NCBI GenBank assembly: GCA_021817985.1
Contig: JAKAFK010000006.1
Location: 1-64,000 of the forward strand
From: Pseudomonadota bacterium
Lineage (GTDB): Bacteria; Pseudomonadota; Gammaproteobacteria; Burkholderiales; JAKAFK01
Reading direction: 5' to 3'
Length of the DNA: 64,000 bases
Shown here piece by piece: positions 8,117-50,609 of this stretch; the first letter of the stretch is position 1, and the number at the start of each line of letters is the position of its first letter. The translations under genes and the position numbers were made by a program. The notes beneath the pieces are model-generated. The model ran no database searches. It was not told the DNA's origin and was given only the letters and a program-made list of their open reading frames with translations.

Positions 8117-8151
8117 CATCGACCCAACGACAACGACAGAGGGACTTACCC

Positions 8152-9552
8152 ATGGCGCAAGCCGCCCGTGTGCGCAGAAAGCTATTCGTATTGGACACCA
8201 ACGTGCTGATGCACGATCCGTCCAGCCTCTTCCGCTTCGAGGAGCACGACATCTATATCCCGATGGCGACCCTGGAGGAGCTCGATCACAACAAGAAGGG
8301 GATGTCCGAAGTCGCCCGCAACGCACGCCAAGCCAGCCGCTTTCTGGACGAGATCGTGCGCACCTTCGACGGGCGCATCGAGCAGGGGATCCCGCTGAGC
8401 ACCCATAGCCACGGCAGCGCCGCGGGCCACCTGTTCCTTCAGACCAGCGCCCTGAGCTCGGAGATCCCGGCGACTTTGCCGAACAGCAAGGTCGACAACC
8501 AGATCCTCGGCGTCGTCCTCCACCTGAAGGGGCAGCAGCCCAAGCGCCAGGTCACCCTGGTCAGCAAAGACATCAACATGCGGATCAAGGCGCGCGCCCT
8601 GGGGATCGCCGCGGAGGACTATTTCAGCGACAAGGTGCTGGAAGATACCGATCTGCTCTACGCAGGCCTGCGGGAACTGCCGGACGGCTTTTGGGAGACC
8701 CACGGCAAGGGGATCGAGTCATGGACCGAGGCCGGACGCACGTATTACCGCGTGAAGGGCCCGCTGTGCGCAAGCCTGCTGGTCAACGAGTTCGTCTATC
8801 AGGAAAGCGGCAAGCCCTTCCATGCCATGGTGCGCGAGGTGAAAGGCGGCACCGCGCTCTTCGAAACCGTCAAGGATTATACCCACCAGAAGAACAACAT
8901 CTGGGGTATCACGGCCCGCAATCGCGAACAGAATTTCGCGCTGAACGTCCTCATGAACCCGGACATCGATTTCGTCACCCTGGTGGGACAGGCCGGTACC
9001 GGCAAGACCCTCCTCACCCTCGCCGCGGGTCTCATGCAGACACTCGAGCACAAGCTCTACAGCGAGATCATCATGACCCGCGTCACCGTGCCGGTCGGTG
9101 AAGACATCGGTTTCCTTCCCGGGACCGAGGAGGAAAAGATGACCCCCTGGATGGGCGCGCTGGAAGACAACCTTGATGTCTTGAACCACACGGACGAGGA
9201 GGCAGGCGACTGGGGACGCGCGGCGACCCAGGACCTCATCCGGACGCGGATCAAGATCAAGTCCCTCAACTTCATGCGCGGACGGACGTTCCTCAACAAG
9301 TACCTCATCATCGACGAGGCCCAGAACCTGACGCCCAAGCAGATGAAGACCCTGATCACGCGGGCAGGGCCGGGAACCAAGGTGGTCTGCCTGGGGAACA
9401 TCTCCCAGATCGACACGCCCTACCTGACGGAAGGCAGCTCAGGGCTGACCTATGTCGTCGACCGCTTCAAGAACTGGCCGCACAGCGGGCACGTGATGCT
9501 CCAGCGCGGGGAGCGCTCGCGCCTGGCCGACTATGCGGCGGAGACGCTCTGA
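8152..9552 (+). CDS. PIN domain - PhoH-family ATPase
   Basis: A 466-residue two-domain protein. Residues 1-150 form a PIN ribonuclease-type domain starting RKLFVLDTNVLMHDP, with the acidic metal ligands. The C-terminal half is a PhoH/RecD-like ATPase with Walker A GQAGTGKTLLTL and Walker B YLIIDEAQNLTP. This architecture (YlaK/PhoH2 type) is linked to RNA unwinding and cleavage, though the cellular substrate is not settled. The downstream gene is convergent, its last base next to this stop (9552/9553), so no terminator space remains. Confidence 0.88.
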   Translation: MAQAARVRRKLFVLDTNVLMHDPSSLFRFEEHDIYIPMATLEELDHNKKGMSEVARNARQASRFLDEIVRTFDGRIEQGIPLSTHSHGSAAGHLFLQTSALSSEIPATLPNSKVDNQILGVVLHLKGQQPKRQVTLVSKDINMRIKARALGIAAEDYFSDKVLEDTDLLYAGLRELPDGFWETHGKGIESWTEAGRTYYRVKGPLCASLLVNEFVYQESGKPFHAMVREVKGGTALFETVKDYTHQKNNIWGITARNREQNFALNVLMNPDIDFVTLVGQAGTGKTLLTLAAGLMQTLEHKLYSEIIMTRVTVPVGEDIGFLPGTEEEKMTPWMGALEDNLDVLNHTDEEAGDWGRAATQDLIRTRIKIKSLNFMRGRTFLNKYLIIDEAQNLTPKQMKTLITRAGPGTKVVCLGNISQIDTPYLTEGSSGLTYVVDRFKNWPHSGHVMLQRGERSRLADYAAETL

Positions 9553-13777: not shown

Positions 13778-14941
13778 TCACGCCCGCAAGAAAGGATGTC
13801 CCGCGATCCGCTCGGCGAGCCGTTCGATTTCAGGGCGGATCGTCCTCTCCTGGGGTTCGTCGATGCGCGATGCGAAAAGGCGACCGGCGGCGGGCTCCTC
13901 CTCATCCCGATCCCAAGGCACGGCCTGCAGGCAGGCCCTGCCTTTCTCGGGAATCTCGTGCGGCAGGCAGCGGCCGGACAGCAGACCCCAAAGGCCGGCC
14001 CAAGCGCGCGCCAGCGCGAGGGGATGATAGCCTCCGCCTCCGGTCACCATGAGGCACGGCGTGCCATCCGCATGCCGGGGCGAGGCGCTCATCACCTTTG
14101 CGGCGGTCTCAAGGAAACCCTGGGTCGAGAGCCTGAACTTGCCCAGAGGGTCGAGGGCCAACCCGTCCGTGCCGGCCTGCAACACCACGGCATCGGGCGC
14201 GAACCGGCGGTTCGCGGGCGCCCACGCCGCATCGAAGACGAGCGCGTACTCCGCATCGTTGACGCCGTCGGGCAATGGCACATTGAGCGTCGTGAACCCT
14301 GCCCCGGGCGCGCCCGCATCCTCGAACCGCCCGCCGGAGAAGGGATAGGCATGACGGCTGTCCATATGAAGCGACAGCGTCAGGACCGAGTCGTCCCGCC
14401 AGAACGCGCTCTCGACGCCATCCCCATGATGGGCGTCGATGTCCACGTAGAGCACACGCAGGCCCGCCTGGCGCAGCCTCAGAATCGCGAGGACCGGGTC
14501 GTTGAAATAGCAAAAGCCGCGCGCCTGGTTGGCCCGCGCGTGATGCATCCCCCCCGCCGGATTGAAGGCGATGCGCCCGTTCAGCAGCGCTTCGGCGGCC
14601 TGGATGCTCGCACCCGCCGCGCGCGCGGGCAGCGTGAAGAGGCCGTCAAAATAGGGATTCTCGGACGTCCCGAGCCCGTGGCGCGCTCGCCAGGCGCGCG
14701 GGACCCTGCCCAGCGCCTCGGAGCGCCGGACGGCGTGCACGTATTCGGGCGTATGGAACCCCTCGAGCTCGTCCACCGTTGCTTCGCGGGCCGACAAGAA
14801 CTCCTCCGGCTCGAGCGCGCCGAAGGCCCGGATGAGATCGAACGTGAGCGACACGCGGGGAATGGCGAGCGGATGGTGCGCCCCGTACATGCTGCGGCGA
14901 TAGGCCCGGCTCCCGACAAAGGTCGCCTTCTGGGCCGGCAT
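13778..14941 (-). CDS. Histone-deacetylase-family protein, AcuC type
   Basis: A 387-residue zinc-dependent deacetylase of the arginase/HDAC superfamily, class I (AcuC) type. The metal site is visible in YVDIDAHHGDGVESAFW; the substrate tunnel in FNPAGGMHHARANQARGFCY; and the C-terminal TGGGGYHP loop carries glycine and tyrosine residues. AcuC-type enzymes deacetylate proteins such as acetyl-CoA synthetase in Bacillus; the target here is unknown. Met at 14941 is preferred over the frame start at 14971. A second member, class II, lies at 47856-48779. Confidence 0.85.
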   Translation of the reverse strand: MPAQKATFVGSRAYRRSMYGAHHPLAIPRVSLTFDLIRAFGALEPEEFLSAREATVDELEGFHTPEYVHAVRRSEALGRVPRAWRARHGLGTSENPYFDGLFTLPARAAGASIQAAEALLNGRIAFNPAGGMHHARANQARGFCYFNDPVLAILRLRQAGLRVLYVDIDAHHGDGVESAFWRDDSVLTLSLHMDSRHAYPFSGGRFEDAGAPGAGFTTLNVPLPDGVNDAEYALVFDAAWAPANRRFAPDAVVLQAGTDGLALDPLGKFRLSTQGFLETAAKVMSASPRHADGTPCLMVTGGGGYHPLALARAWAGLWGLLSGRCLPHEIPEKGRACLQAVPWDRDEEEPAAGRLFASRIDEPQERTIRPEIERLAERIAGHPFLRA

Positions 14942-45038: not shown

Positions 45039-46223
45039 TCAGAGCACGCCATCCTTTCGAAACATCTCTTTCAGCCCCTTGATCGCTTGCCGGGTACGCG
45101 CTTCGTTCTCGATCAAGGAAAAGCGCACATGGTCGTCCCCATGCTCGCCGAAGCCGATGCCCGGGGAAACCGCGACCTTCGCATCGGCCAGCAGGCGCTT
45201 GGAGAATTCCAGCGAGCCCAATCCCGCATAAGGCTCGGGGATCGGCGCCCAGACGAACATGGTGGCCTTCGGCACCTCGACTTGCCATCCCGCGCTGTGC
45301 AACCCCTTGCACAGCGCGTTTCTCCGGGTCTGGTACATGAGGCGAATCTGCTCCACGCAATCCTGCGGGCCTTCCAACGCCAGAATCGACGCCACCTGAA
45401 TGGGCGTGAACGTCCCGTAGTCATGGTAGCTCTTCATGCGCGCAAGCGCCGCGACGAGCCGCGGGTTGCCGACCATGAAGCCCACCCGCCAGCCGGGCAT
45501 GTTGTAGCTCTTCGACAAGGTGAAGAACTCGACCGCCACGTCCTTGGCCCCCGGAACCTGCAGGATGGACGGCGCCTTGTAGCCGTCGAAGACGATGTCG
45601 GCATAGGCAATGTCATGCACCAGAAGGATGCCGAACTCCCGCGCGAAGGCGACGATTCGCTCGAAAAACGACAGATCCACGCACTGCGTGGTCGGATTGC
45701 TCGGAAAATTCAGGATCAGCATCTTGGGCTTGGGGTAGAGGTCCCGCAACGCCGCTTCCAGCTCCTCGAAGAAATCCGACCCCGCGCGCATGGGGACATG
45801 CCGAATATCGGCCCCGGCGATCACGGGTCCATAGATATGGATCGGGTAGCTCGGGTTAGGCACCAGCACGATGTCGCCGCGATCCAGGGTGGCCAGACAC
45901 AGGTGGGCGATGCCCTCCTTGGAGCCGATCGTCACGATCGCCTCGCGATCCGGATCGAGGTCGACGTCGTAGCGCATCTTGTACCAGTTGCAGATCGCCT
46001 TGCGCAGCCGCGGGATGCCCTTGGAGACCGAATACCGGTGCGTATCTCCCCGCCGGGCGGTCTCGACCAGTTTATCGACGATATGTCGCGGCGTCGGCTG
46101 GTCAGGATTGCCCATGCCGAAGTCGATGATGTCCTCGCCGCGCTTGCGCGCGGCAGCCTTCAATTCGCCGGTGATGTTGAAAACGTAAGGAGGCAGACGC
46201 TGGATGCGGGGAAACTCTTCCAT
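45039..46223 (-). CDS. alaC: Alanine-forming aminotransferase AlaC-like
   Basis: Class I PLP aminotransferase, 394 residues. [20 protein letters not shown] at the N-terminus, [12 protein letters not shown] and the PLP lysine in [17 protein letters not shown] agree with AlaC (YfdZ). It probably makes alanine from pyruvate, although the hom linkage is common in many proteobacteria and may serve amino-acid balance. The frame continues upstream to 46715 without a stop, but ATG 46223 is the family start. Confidence 0.9.
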
Positions 46224-46298
46224 GGGGGCAACGATCAAATGTTCCGGACGTCCACTCGCCTGCGCACCGCGCGCAGCCAAGGAAAATCCCAAAAAATG

Positions 46299-46304
46299 TA
46301 TAAT
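46299..46304 (+). promoter_or_regulatory. Likely -10 of the Mth938-like gene
   Basis: TATAAT about 40 bases before the start codon in the divergent region after alaC. No good -35 was found. The gene's GGAG ribosome binding site lies at 46337-46340. Confidence 0.45.
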
Positions 46305-46346
46305 CTTACCTGAGCCCGGAATGGCCCGCAATTTTTGGAGCGATCG

Positions 46347-46718
46347 ATGAAACTGGATCTCGTGGGCGGCGCAGGCAAGCTTTTTTTCACGGGCTACGGC
46401 GAAGGCTACGTCACGATCAATCATCAGCGCTTTGATCGGAGCCTCGTCGTATTGCCCGACCGTCTGGACGACTGGCGGGTCACGACCTTCGAAGCGCTCA
46501 CCGGCGCCGACTTCGAACCCTTGGCGGGGCTCGGCGCGGAAATCGTGCTGCTGGGAACCGGCCGGCGCCTGCGATTCCCTCATCCAAGCCTGACCGAATC
46601 CCTTGCACGGGCGCATGTCGGCTTGGAGGTCATGGACCTCTTCGCCGCCTGCCGGACCTACAACATCCTGGCATCGGAAGGCCGCACCGTGGCGGCGGCG
46701 CTGCTGCTCGAACACTGA
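46347..46718 (+). CDS. Mth938-like (DUF498) domain protein
   Basis: A 123-residue protein of the Mth938/NDUFAF3-like family, function unknown in bacteria; the eukaryotic relative is an assembly factor of respiratory complex I. The pattern [19 protein letters not shown], then [14 protein letters not shown], then [18 protein letters not shown] is characteristic. GGAG precedes ATG 46347. It is convergent with the VOC gene and divergent from alaC. Confidence 0.85.
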
Positions 46719-47855: not shown

Positions 47856-48779
47856 TCACAGTCCCGCGAGCACCTTGATGTGCGCCGCCGCGCTTCGTCC
47901 CAGCGCATCCAGCGCGTAGCCCCCCTCCAGCGACGATACGATGCGCCCCTGGGCATGCCGCACGGCCACGTCCTTGAGCTGCTCGGTCACCCAGGCATAG
48001 TCCGCCTCGACCAGCCCGAAGGATGCCATGTCGTCCTCGCGGTGCCCATCGAAGCCTGCGGAGATGAACAGCATCTCGGGCCGGAACGCTTCCAGGGCCG
48101 GCAGCCAACGGCCTGCCACGGCCTCGCGAAATGCCGTCCCTGCCGTTCCCGCCGGCAGCGGGACGTGGATGAGGTGCTCGTTGCCCGTCTGTGCCCCAGA
48201 GTACGGGTAGAAGGGATGCTGGAAGGTGGACAGCAGCATGACCCGCGTCTCGTCCCGGAATATGTCCTCCGTCCCGTTGCCGTGATGCACGTCGAAGTCG
48301 GCGATCGCCACGCGCCGCAGTCCATGGGCGTGGATCGCGTGCGCCACGCCGACCGCGACGTTGTTGAAAATGCAAAAGCCCATGGCGCGCGAGCGCGTGG
48401 CATGATGCCCTGGGGGGCGAACGCTGCAGAAGGCATTTTCCACCTCGCGCGCCATGACCAGGTCTGTGGCCAGCACCACGCTCCCGGCCGCCCGCAAGGC
48501 GGCCTCCAGCGAGTGGGGATTCATGGCCGTGTCGGGATCGAGACGGGTCAGGCCCTGCGCGGGTGCCGCCCGCCGGATCTCCGCCACGTAACCCGCCGAA
48601 TGCACCCGCAGCAGCTGCGCGGGACTCGCCAGGGGCGCCTCGAAGCGCCTCAGGCGATCGAAAAGGCCGGCCGCGATCAACTGATCCTGTATGGCGCCCA
48701 GCCGTTCCGGACACTCCGGGTGCCCGGCGCCCATGTCGTGTCTCTCACACGCGGGATGAGAAATGAATGCCGTCTGCAC
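47856..48779 (-). CDS. Histone-deacetylase-family protein, class II (APAH-like)
   Basis: A 307-residue zinc-dependent amidohydrolase. MQTAFISHPACERHDMGAGHPECPERL is the class II-like N-terminus; the active site is VRPPGHHATRSRAMGFCIFNN and the metal site is IADFDVHHGNGTEDIF. This branch includes acetylpolyamine amidohydrolases and HdaH. The substrate may be acetylated polyamines or proteins. It is the second such deacetylase in the window and of a different class. It is divergent from the decayed acetyltransferase gene that follows. Confidence 0.9.
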   Translation of the reverse strand: MQTAFISHPACERHDMGAGHPECPERLGAIQDQLIAAGLFDRLRRFEAPLASPAQLLRVHSAGYVAEIRRAAPAQGLTRLDPDTAMNPHSLEAALRAAGSVVLATDLVMAREVENAFCSVRPPGHHATRSRAMGFCIFNNVAVGVAHAIHAHGLRRVAIADFDVHHGNGTEDIFRDETRVMLLSTFQHPFYPYSGAQTGNEHLIHVPLPAGTAGTAFREAVAGRWLPALEAFRPEMLFISAGFDGHREDDMASFGLVEADYAWVTEQLKDVAVRHAQGRIVSSLEGGYALDALGRSAAAHIKVLAGL

Positions 48780-48947
48780 GGTTGTTCGAGCCTGTCGTGC
48801 AAGAAAACGCCACTATAGCAAAACTGGACCGCCCCAAGGGGCCTGCGCGCATTCGGATTAGGCCTGGACCAAACCGAACTTTGAAAGCCGGTAAACACCA
48901 ACAAATTGATTTAACGAAACTTTTTTTATCACCCGTGACAGCGTCTT

Positions 48948-49657
48948 CGGCCCAGTTCTCGCCATCGGCCCGGGCGGGACCGGTGTGGAAGCGGCAAAGG
49001 CAGGCGGGTGCGCGCTGCCGCGGCTTCAGGAAATGGACGTCAATCCGCTCGTCGTCGACGACCACGGCGCGCTGGCCGCCGACGCGCGCATCGTTGTCGA
49101 CCTTGCGTCGCCCCCGAAACGCCTTGTGCGCAGATGGCCATCCACCCCTGTCCCCGGCATCGGGTGAACAGTGGGCAGATGCCAGACGGCACGGAAATCG
49201 TGATTCGCCCGGAGGAGGCAAAAATCCAGCAGGCATTCGTACGCGGGCTATCGGAGCAGACGCGCCAGTTCCGATTCATGGACCCTCCAGCAGCTGACCG
49301 ACACCATGCTGGCGCGCTTCACCCAAATCGATGACGAGCGCGAAACGGCCCTTGTGGCGATTCTGCCGGCTGGCGCCCAGGAAACCGAGTCAGGGGTCGC
49401 GCGACGCCATCATCCCGGATGAGGAAAGTTGCGGGTCCGCGATCGCCGTCGGCGACGCCTGGCAACGCAAAGGGGTCGGTCACCGGCTGATGAGCGCTCT
49501 CTTGCACACAGCCCGGGAACGCCGGCTCAAGATGATGGAAGGCGAGGTGCTGGCCGCCAATCACCGCATATTGGCGTTGCCCGAGCGACTGAGCTTCACG
49601 GCCGCAGCCGATGCGACCGATCCTTCCATCAGGCGAATCGCCAAGCGACTCGCCTGA
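48948..49657 (+). pseudogene. Remnant of a Pat-type acyl-CoA synthetase/GNAT protein
   Basis: Fragments of one gene in at least three frames. First, the end of an ATP-grasp (ADP-forming acyl-CoA synthetase) domain: LQEMDVNPLVVDDHGALAADARIVVD (49024-49101). Then the start of a GNAT domain: EIVIRPEEAKIQQAFVRGLSEQTRQFRF (from about 49195). After a frameshift, LTDTMLARFTQIDDERETALVAIL. After another, AIAVGDAWQRKGVGHRLMSALL and EGEVLAANHRILALPERLSF. This order is that of PatZ/YfiQ lysine acetyltransferases. Most of the N-terminal region is missing. It ends four bases before the rpoS stop. Confidence 0.75.
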
Positions 49658-49661
49658 CGCA

Positions 49662-50609
49662 TCACAAGAGCACATCCTTGTAAACGCCCACCCGTTTCAG
49701 GACGCGCCTCAGGCTTTGCAGGGCTTCCACCTGGATCTGGCGCACGCGCTCCCTCGTGAGGGCCAGCTGGTCCGCCAGTTCCTCCAAGGTCGCGATTTCC
49801 TGACCATTGAGACCGAAACGGCGCTCGATGATCCAGCGCTGCTTCTCGCTCAGCTCGCGCAGCCATGCCTGCACCCGGTATCGGCGTTCGCCCTCCTGAA
49901 ACACCTCTTCCGGCATCAAGGACGCCTCGTCCGGAATCGCTTCGCCGACCGACAGCATGGGGTCGACATCCAGCGGGGCGTCAAGGGAAGCCATCCGTTC
50001 GTTGAAGCTCAGGAGCTCGCGCACCTCCTCGACTGGTTTTTGCATCAGGTGAGCGACATCCTCGACCGTGGGATCGGTCCCGCCCTGCCCCTCCAGATGC
50101 CGCATGGCGCGCAAACAGGTGTTGAGCTCCTTGATGATATGCACCGGCAACCGGATGGTGCGTGACTGATTCATGATGGCCCGCTCGATGTTTTGGCGGA
50201 TCCACCACGTCGCGTAGGTCGAAAACCGAAAGCCGCGCTCCGGATCAAACTTCTCCAGCGCATGGATGAGTCCGAGATTGCCCTCTTCGACCAAGTCGAG
50301 CAACGGCATGCCTCGATTCGTGTAATGCTTCGCGATGTTCACGACCAAACGCAGATTGTGCTCGATCATCTTCTGCCGCGCAGGAAAATCACCCTGGCGG
50401 ACGCGCCGCGCGAGCGCCAACTCCTCGCCCGCCGTCAAGAGCCGGTTATGGCCGATTTCCGCCAAATACGTTTGGGTGACATCGACGTGGAAGTCGGCCG
50501 CACGCTCGTCTTCCCGCTCTGGCTGCTCGCCCTGCAGTCCCCACAAGGGGGAGGCGAGCTCTTCATCGAATGACCGCTCAAGCTCATCGGGAGAGTGTTC
50601 TCGAGTCAT
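49662..50609 (-). CDS. rpoS: Stationary-phase sigma factor RpoS
   Basis: Sigma-70 group 2 factor directing general-stress and stationary-phase transcription. The 315-residue protein has region 1.2 ([11 protein letters not shown]), region 2 ([42 protein letters not shown], with [16 protein letters not shown]), and region 4 ([29 protein letters not shown]). Identity is supported by linkage to nlpD upstream. It is probably read both from nlpD and from its own promoter at 51069-51098. Confidence 0.95.

Follow-up and report, generated by a model that had tools for sequence, protein, structure and literature searches.

Here we report that positions 48928-49657 of a 64,000-nucleotide stretch from a draft Burkholderiales genome (positions 1 to 64,000 of contig JAKAFK010000006.1, hereafter the window) very probably hold a pseudogene, namely the decayed 3′ third of a gene for a type I Pat (CoA-binding, ligase, ATP-grasp and GNAT regions) that has been inactive since about the time its species split from a congener. 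The scar makes no product and is an ordinary pseudogene. The HDAC-type deacetylase gene beside it is kept intact by purifying selection, in a genome with two acetyl-CoA synthetases and with neither a Pat nor a sirtuin detected.

Alignment of the DNA, with frameshifts allowed, to a profile of 15 intact Pat proteins matched 48928 to about 49651-49654 on the forward strand with residues 621-915 of the reference, the 915-residue Pat of a relative (G015), numbered from its upstream stop codon. The homology runs through at least two domains, in order and on one strand. Three frameshifts interrupt it (near 49114, 49281 and 49405), the ATP-grasp domain lacks a single stretch of about 49 residues, and three more residues are missing where the GNAT domain begins. 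The pieces were recovered in the same order by tblastn with the 15 intact Pats (E down to 1.7e-40), and Pfam recognised ATP-grasp_5 (E 2e-7) and Acetyltransf_1 (E 3e-7), each in its own short frame; the third-frame part is about 41-52% identical to intact Pats over its last ~80 residues. A type I Pat carries its C-terminal GNAT domain in one open frame, whereas the GNAT sequence here is split over three, the ATP-grasp domain survives as fragments only, and the CoA-binding and ligase parts are absent from the site. Residues 1-620 are missing both here and from the rest of the genome. No plasmid record matched the stretch by DNA similarity. A first-pass annotation of the window, made from the sequence alone, had described a decayed Pat-type acetyltransferase gene beside rpoS, read in three successive frames from the end of an ATP-grasp domain into a GNAT domain with at least two frameshifts, and had predicted a frameshifted translated match to the C-terminal part of Pat; all of this is borne out, with a third frameshift and deletions besides. 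Its mention of a lysine acetyltransferase or an acyl-CoA synthetase fusion also proved apt, the family being type I Pat, in which an acyl-CoA-synthetase-like region is fused to GNAT. It had placed the gene at 48948-49657, which is correct for the end, where the stop codon closes at 49657 just short of the end of rpoS at 49662, but not for the start, as the remnant begins at 48928. It did not mention the divergent deacetylase gene, the downstream genes that relatives have and the window lacks, or the repeat end at the 5′ break.

Table. Features of the pat locus in the window and of related loci elsewhere (window coordinates unless a genome or contig is named)
Feature	Location	Strand	Remarks
HDAC-type (Zn-dependent) deacetylase gene, intact	47856..48779	-	frequent divergent neighbour of pat in relatives
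54-bp end of dispersed repeat	48874..48927	+	directly abuts the 5′ break of the pat remnant
pat remnant, frame 1	48928..49113	+	Pat residues 621-641, gap of ~49 residues, then end of ATP-grasp domain (CALPRLQEMDVNPLVVDDHGALAADARIVVDLASP)
pat remnant, frame 2	49116..49280	+	ATP-grasp/GNAT junction and GNAT start (MAIHPCPRH...MPDGTEIVIRP...FRFM)
pat remnant, frame 1 again	49282..49404	+	middle of GNAT domain (TLQQLTDTMLARFTQIDDERETALVA...GVAR)
pat remnant, third frame	49406..49657	+	acetyl-CoA-binding half of GNAT, to the stop codon
rpoS	49662..50609	-	convergent with the pat remnant
Two longer repeat copies	window's genome (G000), C178:12376-12937; C11:34688-35013		80-81% identical to the window end
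Divergent full-length pat beside the deacetylase gene	G015, G025, G029, G030, G031, G035, G042, G043, G047, G048
Stand-alone GNAT genes, ~195 aa	L122 (G024) 8146-8730; G152:C294:2879-3460; G113:C3:2976-3557
Further G045 contigs with the pre-pat repeat	C20, C32, C33, C35, C61, C63, C90, C103, C111, C118

That an intact gene was broken by sequencing or assembly error is next to impossible: although the genome is a 3.97-Mb draft in 184 contigs (96% complete), a few base errors cannot remove 620 codons and create an internal gap, and a second genome has an independently decayed remnant at the same site. This second genome, the single member of the same genus compared here (G001), is collinear with the window, and about 88% identical, over most of the 20 kb around the site; the alignment is interrupted between 48861 and 49393. 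Its remnant corresponds to Pat residues ~824-915 and contains a frameshift, and it retains further pieces matching residues 401-418 (E ~2e-4) and, weakly, the region near residues 290-336 (E 0.008 at best).

The comparison of the two remnants allows the loss to be dated. Over the 254 bases that can be aligned with this one congener, differences are uniform across codon positions 1, 2 and 3 (22/85, 16/85 and 21/84; p 0.58), and the overall divergence of 59/254 (0.232) is close to that at the fourfold sites of eight flanking genes (277/1321, or 0.210; Fisher p 0.45). The same eight genes differ at 150/2596, 85/2596 and 476/2596 of their first, second and third positions when pooled, rates that are slightly lowered because one flanking frame (45039-46715) probably extends beyond the true gene; at positions 1 and 2 together the remnants are far more divergent (38/170 vs 235/5192; p 2e-15). 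The even spread of differences over codon positions and a rate equal to that of fourfold sites point to neutral drift since about the species split, so that pat has escaped selection for roughly the whole time since the two lineages separated. Three frameshifts and large deletions occur in a sequence that bears no sign of selection.

These figures contradict the first-pass annotation on one point, its proposal of a recent loss. A gene that worked until shortly before the present and was lost in the window lineage only would agree with three frameshifted pieces that are still recognisable at the identities given above, and with frameshifts and deletions that differ from those of the congener. 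It is nevertheless very unlikely, because a decayed remnant occupies the corresponding site in the congener and because positions 1 and 2 have diverged at the pace of fourfold sites, where a recent loss would have left few differences. A stronger competitor is that the gene was inactivated independently in the two species, soon after the split. It is allowed by the lack of any common lesion in the overlap of the remnants (residues ~824-915), where the frameshift and deletions of one are not those of the other, and the pieces kept also differ, the window retaining residues 621-641 and ~691-915 and the congener ~401-418 and 824-915 with the weak match at ~290-336. Such a history would require two events where one suffices, and 0.232 differences per site leave little time under selection; we regard two early losses as possible but rather unlikely, and infer a single ancestral loss.

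The intact pat genes of relatives consist of a single frame of about 900 aa encoding CoA-binding, Succ_CoA_lig, ATP-grasp_5 and GNAT domains. One of their products (L024) can be aligned along almost all of its length with the PDB chains 9it0 and 9isq, named protein acetyltransferase; in the G015 reference, solved chains of that name match residues 24-906. The last frame of the window remnant was matched in 39 of 60 genomes searched, the window's own included, and ten of these 60 have, next to the deacetylase gene and divergent from it, a frame of 826-942 aa. In a wider set of 200 genomes of the order, 125 had a match to a GNAT query with E no higher than 1e-20, mostly within long frames. Fourteen of the 15 intact Pats have a methionine at the ATP-grasp/GNAT junction (HMAIYPYP), and the stand-alone GNAT frames of three genomes, 46-59% identical to the GNAT end of Pat, begin near that residue. 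The one in G024 adjoins the deacetylase gene, in the place of the full Pat of others, and resembles a Pat trimmed to the catalytic domain alone.

Given these stand-alone genes, one of them at the same locus, the last frame of the window (49331-49657, 108 aa) might be taken for a working small GNAT protein. We rejected this reading, which is extremely improbable: the first half of GNAT is missing from the 108-aa frame, the congener is frameshifted within the matching stretch, and codon-position bias is absent. Two other loci carry GNAT-only sequence. In a named betaproteobacterial MAG (L046, 5691-5876) the first ~60 residues of such a GNAT, ending in a stop, lie between the deacetylase gene and moxR, a further decayed copy at this locus. 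In G039 (L126, 9380-9889) a GNAT-only match to Pat lies beside the deacetylase gene and is followed by moxR and tgpA, in a frame open for 594 codons from stop to stop.

In relatives with an intact pat, the gene is divergent from that of the deacetylase and is followed by moxR and, further on, tgpA, with rpoS convergent at the far end (hdac<- ->pat-moxR-...-tgpA-> <-rpoS). The complete order of deacetylase, pat, moxR, tgpA-like transglutaminase and rpoS genes is seen in G048; G045 agrees with it between pat and rpoS and carries the deacetylase gene on a different contig, and G024 has this order with the GNAT-only gene replacing pat. The moxR-tgpA interval has space for one more gene, and two frames tried there gave no Pfam match. 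Among 80 named loci, Pat lies near the deacetylase in 21 (one cut by a contig end), a Pat fragment in one (that of the MAG described above), and no Pat in 58, some of which are short contigs; at 26 of the 80 the deacetylase gene is beside moxR and tgpA without pat, 8 of these also having rpoS in range. In G045, pat is preceded by a repeat (L022 1-140) that recurs in many places, contig ends among them; one of these is an end of the deacetylase contig.

In the window, the pat remnant alone remains of this block between the deacetylase gene and rpoS. No tgpA orthologue was found in the window's genome or in the congener, where the best matches had E values of 1.9e-5 and 2.4e-6 over about 80 residues; the comparison match in G015 had 3.5e-236. 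The remnant is probably the leftover of a larger lost block. Judging from the gene order in relatives, the ancestral pat would have stood divergently beside the deacetylase gene and would probably have been the first gene of a block, pat-moxR-(one gene)-tgpA, with rpoS at its far end; pat would already have been inactive at about the time of the species split, and the genes downstream of it may well have departed together with it.

The 5′ break of the remnant offers a candidate for the manner of the deletion. The segment at 48874-48927 resembles one end of an ancient insertion element. A short-repeat query with up to three mismatches returned the window copy only, and longer queries gave two more copies, which show 90% mutual identity across 238 bp and have a second, 45-bp end in common; both ends are common to the two copies, and by eye they look inverted (about AGCCCGAACTTTG). 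No transposase was identified with the repeat copies, and the searches made for the 54-bp end in the congener gave no match. The repeat end may have arrived after the split and taken part in the 5′ deletion in this lineage, an insertion followed by deletion being a plausible route to the loss of residues 1-620.

No second Pat turned up when the window's genome (96% complete) was searched with a full Pat protein and with the CoA-binding and ATP-grasp families; the only matches were SucC/SucD-like genes, a 154-aa CoA-binding protein and the pat remnant itself. The strong CoA-binding match at C148:11592 was rejected as another Pat, since its frame of 154 aa is that of a small CoA-binding protein, as were the SucC/SucD-like genes at 82-84 kb of C94, which occupy one frame of 301 aa and another of 499 aa. 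On C68, a distant 194-aa GNAT frame matches at E 7e-4 only. Both acetyl-CoA synthetase genes score above the family cut-off, and no sirtuin was found in this genome or in the congener.

The deacetylase gene presents a very different picture from its neighbour. Its product contains a full-length histone deacetylase domain (PF00850, 285.7 bits, profile positions 1-298 of 298) and matches solved deacetylases in the PDB, and its named relatives are mostly betaproteobacterial, from which the window's genome also appears to be that of a betaproteobacterium. The gene has 91% identity between the two species; over 307 codons there are 14 differences at first, 17 at second and 53 at third positions, and this concentration at third positions indicates purifying selection. 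A second, distant gene of the HDAC family, 30% identical, lies elsewhere in the window (13994-14926, reverse strand) in a frame of 406 codons. From what is known of the pathway, acetyl-CoA synthetase is expected no longer to be switched off by Pat once Pat is gone, and the deacetylase to act on lysines acetylated by other enzymes or non-enzymatically. We tentatively propose that the genus is a natural knock-out in which the deacetylase partner of Pat was kept after Pat was lost, and that the main job of this enzyme may be independent of Pat, such as the removal of non-enzymatic acetylation or action on another substrate; the 26 named loci with moxR and tgpA beside the deacetylase gene and no pat nearby point the same way. 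The locus can be used as a dated natural experiment, with a deacetylase under selection beside a drifting acetyltransferase partner, and it makes testable what an HDAC-type deacetylase does without Pat, which is the point of wider interest.

We found no literature that joins Pat, acetyl-CoA synthetase, a pseudogene and the deacetylase, and do not claim that such losses are unpublished; the portion of PMC11532494 consulted for the genomic context of Pat or deacylases contains nothing about Pat neighbours. In the type I layout, as set out in part of a review, the CoA-binding, ligase and ATP-grasp regions are joined to GNAT, with the Pat of E. coli and Salmonella as examples (PMC8556138). The window remnant resembles these Pat/PatZ proteins in its homology to the ATP-grasp end and C-terminal GNAT of relatives' intact Pats; unlike them, it lacks residues 1-620, has three frameshifts and cannot encode the enzyme. 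The GNAT-only gene of G024 (type IV layout) occupies the same place beside the deacetylase gene, but it and those of G152 and G113 are intact frames of ~195 aa, whereas the window keeps ATP-grasp pieces and is frameshifted. In the acuABC locus of B. subtilis, described in part of another source, the acetyltransferase AcuA is accompanied by the deacetylase AcuC (PMC13121692). The two loci are alike in placing an acetyltransferase gene adjacent to one for an HDAC-type deacetylase; they differ in that AcuA, a small GNAT, has no acyl-CoA-synthetase-like region, and in that the acetyltransferase gene of the window is dead.
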